Of a stretch of 9,187 bases of DNA, positions 5,676 through 7,847 are shown in pieces. The notes under the pieces were generated by a model. It made no database searches and was not told where the DNA came from. It was given only the letters and a program-made list of their open reading frames with translations. The position numbers and the translations under genes are program-made. Each line of letters starts with the position of its first letter. The stretch's first letter is position 1. The stretch spans positions 1-9,187 of the forward strand of contig JACUUP010000054.1 in NCBI GenBank assembly GCA_014859225.1, read 5' to 3'. The stretch comes from Candidatus Aerophobota bacterium (GTDB taxonomy: Bacteria > Aerophobota > Aerophobia > Aerophobales > B3-G15).

Positions 5676-6502
5676 ATGTTACCCATAGCCTTGTTTTGGG
5701 AATCCTCCAGGGGTTTACTGAATTTCTACCTATAAGTAGCTCCGGTCACCTTGTTATTCTCCAGCACTACATGGGAATTAAAGAATCTGTAGTTTTTTTT
5801 AATGTAATGGTGCATATAGGAACTTTAGCCTCTGTAGTAGTTTTTTTTCGCAAAGAGCTTTATCTTATAGTTTTATCTGTTGTAAAATTTAGTTCCCGGG
5901 ATAAAGAATATTTATTTTATCGTCAAATTATCTTAGCCGTTCTTATAGGAACATTACCTACCGCTTTTTCAGGGTTTATTTTAAGTAAAGTGAAAGATTT
6001 TTTGTTCTATGGTGCAGTTTTACCTGCAGGAATGCTTCTTTTCACTGGATTTTTTTTATGGCTGGGGGAAAAACTATCCAGCAATATGCGCATTCCTGAA
6101 AAAAAACAAAAACCTGGCATAATTGATGCTTTATTTATTGGATTTATGCAGGGGGTAGCTATAATTCCAGGAATATCAAGGTCAGGCACGACCATATCAT
6201 CCGGGCTTATAAGAGGTCTTGGAAGAAAAATAGCTTTCCGGTATAGTTTTTTACTTTTTATTCCTGCAGCAATTGGCGCCTTAGTGCTGGAAAGTAGGGA
6301 AGTTAACGTGGCAGTGGCTAGCGCCCCCACTCTTCCCTTTTTTCTTGGAACCTCAACAGCTTTTATAACAGGTATTATTGCTTTAACCATCTTGAGAAAA
6401 GTCCTGGAAGAGAAAAAACTCGTCATCTTTTCCTGGTATTGCTGGATTTTAGGGGGGAGTATCCTTTTCTTTGAAGCTATGAAAGTATTGACATCCTTGT
6501 AG
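5672..6502 (+). CDS. uppP: Undecaprenyl-diphosphate phosphatase (BacA/UppP)
   Basis: UppP is an integral inner-membrane enzyme that dephosphorylates undecaprenyl diphosphate, recycling the carrier lipid for peptidoglycan and other envelope polymers; overproduction of this family gives bacitracin resistance. The protein has 276 aa with about eight hydrophobic segments. The first active-site motif is QGFTEFLPISSSGH at 13-26, with Q13 and E17 forming the (E/Q)xxxE pair and H26 at its end. FNVMVHIGTL (43-52) is a family signature. The second half repeats the pattern with QGVAI (160-164) and PGISRSGTTIS (166-176), including R170. All expected catalytic positions are present. The start ATG overlaps the lpxA stop (ATGA), with GGAAGGAAG 12 bases upstream, a rather long spacing. 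Pairing with lpxA makes an envelope-lipid couple at the end of the first operon. Confidence 0.96.
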   Translation: MNVTHSLVLGILQGFTEFLPISSSGHLVILQHYMGIKESVVFFNVMVHIGTLASVVVFFRKELYLIVLSVVKFSSRDKEYLFYRQIILAVLIGTLPTAFSGFILSKVKDFLFYGAVLPAGMLLFTGFFLWLGEKLSSNMRIPEKKQKPGIIDALFIGFMQGVAIIPGISRSGTTISSGLIRGLGRKIAFRYSFLLFIPAAIGALVLESREVNVAVASAPTLPFFLGTSTAFITGIIALTILRKVLEEKKLVIFSWYCWILGGSILFFEAMKVLTSL

Positions 6503-6515
6503 ATTAGAATAAAAT
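6488..6515 (+). promoter_or_regulatory. Predicted sigma-70-type promoter for hflX
   Basis: TTGACA at 6488-6493 is a perfect -35 consensus hexamer. After a 16-base spacer comes TAAAAT at 6510-6515, matching five of six -10 positions. The -35 lies within the last codons of uppP and the -10 just after its stop. Transcription would start near 6522, leaving a short leader of roughly 25 bases before the hflX start. Such matches occur by chance in A+T-rich DNA, but this is the largest untranslated gap in the window and lies directly before a new gene. Confidence 0.5.
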
Positions 6516-6530
6516 TTAGACAGAACTAAA

Positions 6531-6537
6531 AGGAGGG
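6531..6537 (+). promoter_or_regulatory. Strong ribosome-binding site upstream of hflX
   Basis: AGGAGGG is an almost ideal Shine-Dalgarno sequence. There is no ATG, GTG or TTG in the HflX frame within 140 bases downstream. The only reasonable in-frame initiator at a usable distance is ATC at 6549, 11 bases after the motif. A CTG at 6541 is in another frame, which closes after nine codons. Confidence 0.75.
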
Positions 6538-6548
6538 AAACTGCAACC

Positions 6549-7847
6549 ATCCCTAAACAAAATTATATAAAGCCAGTTGGAGCAAAGAAAAAAGAGAAAG
6601 CCGTTCTGGTAGCTCTTGAGAGCAAAAAGGAAGGTGAGACGGGGTGGAGTACAGAGGATTCTTTACATGAACTTTCCCAATTAGTGCAAACGGCGGGAGG
6701 CCAGGTGCAGAGTAGGCTCATTCAGAAGCGAGAGATGCCGGATTCCGCCTTTTATATAGGGAAAGGTAAGGCAGAAGAGGTTGTGCGTATTTGCCAGCAG
6801 CTTGCTACGGATGTAGTAATATTTGACGATGATTTAACCCCCTCCCAGCAAAAAAATCTGGAAGAAAAAATCGGTGTAAAGATTGTTGACCGCACTCAGC
6901 TTATTTTAGATATATTTGCCCTGCGGGCTAACTCGGGAATGGGAAAAATTCAGGTTGAGCTTGCTCAACTGAGCTATCTGCTTCCCCGATTAACAGGAAT
7001 GGGGCTCTTGCTTTCGCGTCTTGGTGGAGGAATAGGAACTCGCGGACCGGGAGAAATGAAACTGGAGGTGGACAGAAGGAAAATTAAGGACCGTATAATA
7101 AAGTTAAAGGAAAAAATTAAACAGATAGAAAGACAACGCCATGTAATTAAGAAAAAAAGAGCTAACTGGTGGAAAATAGCTTTAATAGGATACACAAATG
7201 TTGGCAAATCCACTCTTCTTAACCGTCTGACTGAAGCAGATGTCAGAGTTGATAACAAATTATTTGCCACGCTTGACCCTACCACAAGAAAACTCACTCT
7301 TCCCAACAACCAGGTAGTGCTTCTAACTGATACTGTGGGATTTATAAACAAACTCCCCCATCATCTAATAGCGGCATTTCACGCAACTTTACAGGAAGTG
7401 GAGGAAAATGACATACTCATTAATGTTTTGGATGCTTCTCACCCTAAGGTAATGGAACAAAATGGGGCTACTTATTCAGTGCTAAAAGAGCTTAACGCAC
7501 ATGAAAAACCCATAATTAATGTTCTAAACAAAATAGACCTTGCTCAAAATCATGCTGCAGTTGAAAGAGTTAAGCGAGCCTTAAACTCACCCATCCTTAC
7601 ATCAGGTCTCACAGGATTTGGGCTTGAGGAACTTCTGAAAAAAATAGCTGCCATGATAGATGAAACTATGATAGATACAGTATTTTATTTTCCTTACCAG
7701 AGAAATGATTTAATCTCCCTTGTTTACGAGAAGGGTGAGGTAAAAGATAAAAAGTATTTAAATGATAAAGTAATTATTGAGGCAAAAGTTACACCTGTTT
7801 TAGCGGAAAAACTAATTCAGTTCAGAGACGGAAATAAAGCAAATTAG
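6549..7847 (+). CDS. hflX: HflX-type ribosome-associated GTPase, probable ATC start
   Basis: HflX is a GTPase that binds the large ribosomal subunit; in E. coli and Staphylococcus it splits stalled or hibernating ribosomes after stress. Numbering from codon 6549 gives 432 aa, close to E. coli HflX. The nucleotide-binding N-domain starts with KAVLVALES and an SLHELSQL helix (6597-6683), which must be coding. Then come the [11 protein letters not shown] linker (about 159-169), a coiled coil (about 175-205), G1 GYTNVGKST (214-222), switch [10 protein letters not shown] (239-247), G3 DTVGF (261-265) and G4 NKID (327-330). G5 reads TSG (351-353) instead of the usual SA pair. The frame is open back to a TAA at 6510, but the first ATG/GTG/TTG is GTG at 6684, which would remove 45 conserved-type residues. 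ATC at 6549, giving (M)PKQNYIKP, is my choice; a sequencing or assembly error changing ATG to ATC would explain it equally well. The gene is certain; the start is not. Confidence 0.9.

Follow-up and report, generated by a model that had tools for sequence, protein, structure and literature searches.

A probable conserved AUH start codon of hflX in Candidatus Aerophobetes

The window, i.e. the whole stretch of 9,187 nucleotides that was analysed, is a contig of a 1.8 Mb Candidatus Aerophobetes MAG (genome G000) and carries the gene hflX, the 5' end of which is laid out in Table 1. The hflX frame is preceded by an in-frame stop (TAA, 6510-6512) and is open from 6513, and reading of all in-frame codons from 6513 to 6683 returned no ATG, GTG or TTG; the first canonical codon is the GTG at 6684, which is codon 58 of the open frame. 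Upstream of it, the only near-cognates of the AUH (i.e. AUU, AUC or AUA) or CUG type are ATC 6549, ATA 6567 and CTG 6606. A preliminary description of this DNA had reported the absence of a canonical start, the same three near-cognates, the AGGAGGG motif and a length of 432 aa for the product read from ATC 6549, all of which are found in the sequence as described.

Table 1. Features of the hflX 5' end (window coordinates), codons in the aligned hflX start column and loci of other genes with non-canonical starts
Feature	Position	Strand	Basis or remark
-35 hexamer TTGACA, hflX promoter	6488..6493	+	TTGACA-16-TAAAAT match
-10 hexamer TAAAAT, hflX promoter	6510..6515	+	overlaps in-frame stop TAA
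Shine-Dalgarno (SD) AGGAGGG	6531..6537	+	window sequence; AGGAGG also in relatives
ATC, putative hflX initiation codon	6549..6551	+	aligned AUH column in seven genomes; onset of codon constraint
HflX N-terminal basic tail before conserved core	6549..6596	+	third-position-biased differences
hflX CDS, 432 aa plus stop	6549..7847	+	TIGR03156 and Pfam matches
GTG, first in-frame canonical start	6684..6686	+	would truncate HflX
hflX start column, AUH			ATC G000, ATA G001, ATC G002, ATT G005, ATT G009, ATT G010, ATT G011
hflX start column, non-AUH			AAT G003, ACC G015, ACC G004, ACC G006, AAA G008
proB (glutamate 5-kinase), ATA genomes	G000 C72 L093:8827-9960; L229, L235, L238, L239, L240	minus (L093)	
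G001 cinA	L129:2890-4131	minus	
G001 murJ	L123:about 10691-12238	plus	
G001 metF-like gene	L139:4086-4463	minus	
G026 pdxA-like gene	L188:7697-8713	minus	

The comparison set consisted of 17 genomes of this order, 12 of which have an intact hflX 5' end. The promoter TTGACA-16-TAAAAT, which spans 6488-6515, has 11/12 matches where 0.3 sites would be expected, and in the leader alignment TTGACA and a 16-nt spacer also precede hflX in most order-mates, with TAAAAT or TATAAT as the -10 hexamer. Given a promoter at this position, the transcript probably starts about 10 nt 5' of the SD. The leader RNA is not unusual in its predicted structure (fold z-score 0.31), and its comparison with Rfam yielded only one sub-threshold chance match. 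An out-of-frame CTG mini-ORF with an SD spacing of 4, present in G000 and G001, was dropped as a candidate, being absent from G002 and G005.

The hflX 5' ends were aligned at the conserved K/R-A-I/V-L-V motif, and the start column was defined as the codon after the SD that opens a tail of 13-18 residues. A canonical start before the conserved N-terminal motif is missing in 9 of the 12 genomes of the order against 0/37 in the hflX of other phyla (Fisher p = 1.1e-7, related genomes not being independent), so that the absence, as judged from these alignments, is not chance. The column is AUH in seven genomes, which belong to six genera and three families, with a constant AT and a third base that is C, A or T only. 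The three genera of the window's own family (f1) have ATC, ATA and ATC, and the other families with AUH have ATT; this is so although the HflX proteins of the order-mates are only about 60-76% identical to that of the window (76% in the case of G001). The HflX tree leaves the families unresolved, except that it places G005 with f1, and the ATC/ATA difference within f1 amounts to one certain codon change in which AU was kept and G avoided. As for the genomes with other codons in the column, G004 (ACC) has an in-frame ATG farther upstream, G006 (ACC) an in-frame ATG five codons downstream and G008 (AAA) a CTG nine bases after AAGGAG, and in G003 and G015 no near-cognate codon lies at a usable distance from the SD. 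G010, with ATT in the column, also has a TTG within the tail, seven codons in, which is not preceded by an SD. As a separate observation, the motif AATACCTT(T)A directly follows the SD in the hflX leaders of G015, G006 and G004 (L014, L015, L013), i.e. in three families whose start column is without AUH.

These relatives bear on the simplest explanation, namely that an ATG at 6549 was lost through an error of sequencing or assembly, or through a private mutation. The window does come from a MAG contig without reads and a single base turns ATC into ATG; however, six other assemblies show ATA, ATC or ATT at this position, the lack of a canonical start is shared by nine of the twelve genomes, and ATG, for which the preliminary description had proposed that positions 6549-6551 be inspected in relatives, occupies the aligned column in 0 of the 12 genomes. 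By this comparison the explanation is refuted, and the probability that we would still give it is negligible.

The pattern of nucleotide differences points in the same direction. In three pairwise comparisons within f1, the differences at codon positions 1/2/3 number 3/2/7, 2/3/8 and 1/5/8 over the tail (16 codons after the start), against 4/4/4, 3/6/5 and 5/8/4 over the leader (12 codons before the start). Likewise, between G009 and G010 the tail shows 2 synonymous changes and 0 replacements, and the leader 0 synonymous changes and 5 replacements. As far as these pairs reveal, codon-like constraint starts at the codon at 6549 and is absent just upstream of it. The preliminary description had left the choice between a true non-canonical start and a damaged ATG; the ATC, ATA and ATT of the relatives, together with the onset of constraint at 6549, favour the former.

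The extent of the protein family gives an independent bound on the start. Read from 6549, the 432-aa product scores 443.9 bits against the TIGR03156 profile (GTP_HflX; cut-off 216.75), its residues 17-369 align to profile positions 1-350 of 351, i.e. the match is full-length, and the Pfam domains GTP-bdg_N, GTP-bdg_M, MMR_HSR1 and HflX_C are recognised. Since position 1 of TIGR03156 corresponds to residue 17, initiation must, by the profile alignment, lie upstream of GTG 6684, as had been claimed before, which leaves 6513 to about 6597 as the range for the start. Initiation at GTG 6684, with a 387-aa HflX and an untranslated stretch upstream, has in its favour that this is the first canonical codon and that G005 has an equivalent GTG. 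It would, however, cost the first 26 positions of TIGR03156 (the profile match then begins at 27) and positions 1-11 of PF13167, it would leave untranslated a stretch under coding constraint, a start at that position is missing in most relatives, and all 37 of the outside hflX genes start before the conserved motif; we therefore hold it to be very improbable. Gene-annotation programs would nonetheless probably choose this GTG as the start of hflX.

Ribosomes might also reach the hflX frame from elsewhere, namely by a prfB-like programmed +1 frameshift in which an SD-stimulated slip at CTT TAA or TTT TAG feeds them in from the preceding frame. The sequences AGG AGG AAA TAC CTT TAA in G015 and AAA TTT TAG in the preceding frame of G003 resemble the RF2 site, and AGGAGGAAAAATTTTAG of G003 and AGGAGGAAATACCTTTAAG of G015 look like prfB slippery sites. 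Yet the slippery pattern is missing from families f1 and f4, and the preceding frame offers no usable start after the promoter in G003 and G006; in G015 it has a single ATG, 2 nt beyond the -10 hexamer and probably upstream of the transcript, and in the window it has a stop just 5' of the SD and no start thereafter. Such a frameshift thus seems improbable.

With initiation at the start column as the preferred reading, the distance from the SD deserves attention. AGGAGG is also found upstream of hflX in G001, G002, G005, G009, G010, G015 and G003, and the spacing to the column is 12 nt in G000, G001, G002 and G005 and 4-5 nt in G009, G010 and G011. The spacing from AGGAGG to ATG, sampled in 51 ATG ORFs from G000, G001 and G003, has a mode of 6 and is mostly 5-8, with only two values of at least 11. 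The preliminary description, which had portrayed the spacing as usual for this DNA, was misleading on this point. The 12-nt spacing would lower the output of hflX further, or it hints at a different positioning of the ribosome.

Non-canonical starts are not confined to hflX in these genomes. In the case of infC, each of the 16 genomes from which the gene was recovered has an ATT, ATC or ATA preceded by an SD (L141-L156). In the case of proB, an SD followed by ATA is the apparent start in G000, G002, G004, G006, G015 and G016, and ATG or GTG is the start in G005, G008, G009 and G010. G001 alone has ATA in cinA and in murJ; for cinA, the majority of relatives carry an ATG at this position or adjacent to it, and for murJ most carry TTG and others ATG. 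Comparison of the orthologues of proB, cinA and murJ thus shows AUA, as the apparent start, to replace real start codons in the phylum, and at this level hflX is shown to differ from ordinary genes in the consistency of its non-canonical start. The genome-wide excess of such starts in Aerophobetes was not significant (about 10/573 against 1/341, p = 0.06, the sampled genes having been sorted by hand and the controls being three genomes). An altered initiator tRNA was considered as the cause of loose initiation and rejected, the initiator tRNA of these genomes being standard with its GGG/CCC anticodon stem.

Several observations were made alongside. In G001, a metF-like gene has an SD and ATC at the position of the methionine. 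Among the controls, the complete and unrelated genome G026 contains a pdxA-like gene with AGGAGG-7-ATA whose first 134 codons include no canonical start, so that annotation may underestimate the frequency of AUA starts. The prfB-like frames at L132:5350-6414 (plus) and L107:11217-12260 (plus) lack a start over 60-70 codons, in keeping with the known programmed frameshift of RF2. In G000, a gyrA-like frame (L067:16665-17906) and a polyprenyl-synthase-like frame (L048:469-1359) begin inside the protein, probably through frameshifts in the assembly, and an apparent open frame of 24,068 aa at G003:C59:88000 (L157) appears to stem from a run of N in the record, not from a giant protein, N being present upstream of the match.

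Taken together, we consider it quite probable that hflX of Aerophobetes has a real and conserved AUH start that limits its synthesis and that is probably sensitive to IF3, the last step being argued by analogy. The gene would be transcribed from its own sigma70-type promoter and AGGAGG would recruit the ribosomes, the promoter and the SD both being evident from sequence and conservation, and translation would begin at AUC in the window, and at AUU, AUC or AUA across at least six genera, by means of fMet-tRNA with a third-base mismatch. Because the initiator tRNA would pair with only two of the three codon bases, i.e. the first two, initiation would be inefficient and little HflX would be made. 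An in vitro initiation survey found that the first and second bases need Watson-Crick pairs and that the third base is tolerant and IF3-sensitive (PMC10158994). Since IF3 rejects AUH codons and infC starts with AUU, AUC or AUA in the same genomes, translation of hflX probably rises when IF3, or the stringency of initiation, falls, as the cases of E. coli infC and Streptomyces sigR suggest. HflX separates 70S ribosomes into their subunits, which IF3 holds apart, so that joint control of the two is a sensible proposal: a ribosome-splitting factor would be coupled to how much of the anti-association factor is available.

The same start could also serve a low, constant expression without regulation by IF3, a strong SD and a weak codon setting the rate and the codon drifting among AUH, ACC and AAU. 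This differs from the IF3-sensitive start in the IF3 step only, and it is agreeable with the codons other than near-cognates in the start column of five genomes and with the sporadic ATA of cinA and murJ in G001, which suggests drift of start codons. The retention of AUH over deep divergence, with a third base that changes but never to G, as in infC, speaks against it, and we regard it as possible though somewhat doubtful. A further extension of the IF3-sensitive start, which we put forward tentatively and hold to be rather unlikely, is that HflX is under the start-codon control of IF3 across the phylum, as part of a small anti-association regulon (infC, hflX, perhaps proB and others) that reads out the stringency of start-codon selection, with a choice of start codon so relaxed in some members that even AAU or ACC can be used behind a strong SD.

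To our knowledge, very few bacterial genes keep a non-canonical start over long evolution; characterised genes of that sort include regulators of translation and of stress. Our search of the literature returned no report of an hflX with a conserved non-canonical start, nor of a non-AUG start in Aerophobetes. If the IF3-sensitive start is true, the splitting of ribosomes by HflX is tied to the supply of IF3, and comparing the genomes of uncultured phyla can reveal such starts. In practice, standard gene callers would then probably truncate HflX and misplace the starts of proB, cinA or murJ in Aerophobetes genomes.

The closest known counterpart is infC, whose AUH codon is the textbook example of an IF3-autoregulated start and recurs in other bacteria. 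Like hflX, infC combines a strong SD with a conserved AUH codon and avoids AUG, and it does so in the same Aerophobetes genomes; unlike hflX, known from sequence and with a 12-nt spacing in two families, it has a normal SD spacing (about 5-6) and an experimentally established autoregulation. In Streptomyces, where IF3 represses sigR via a GTC or GTT start, with infC as a further precedent (PMC5472188), a stress gene is similarly held low by a conserved non-canonical start behind a conserved SD (AGGAGGTG); the gene and the codon are other ones, and control by IF3 is demonstrated for sigR whereas it is proposed by analogy for hflX. In S. aureus, infC (AUA), ccpN (AUA) and cvfC1 (AUU) give about 10% of the output of AUG (PMC13009471). 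The ccpN and cvfC1 genes of S. aureus and B. subtilis share with hflX the conserved AUH start and the strong SD, and they differ from it in having an extended SD at a suitable spacing and the support of ribosome profiling (PMC13009471). Finally, E. coli pcnB, as cited in PMC13009471, starts with AUU and is, as proposed for hflX, an RNA-related gene limited by an AUH codon, albeit a different gene.
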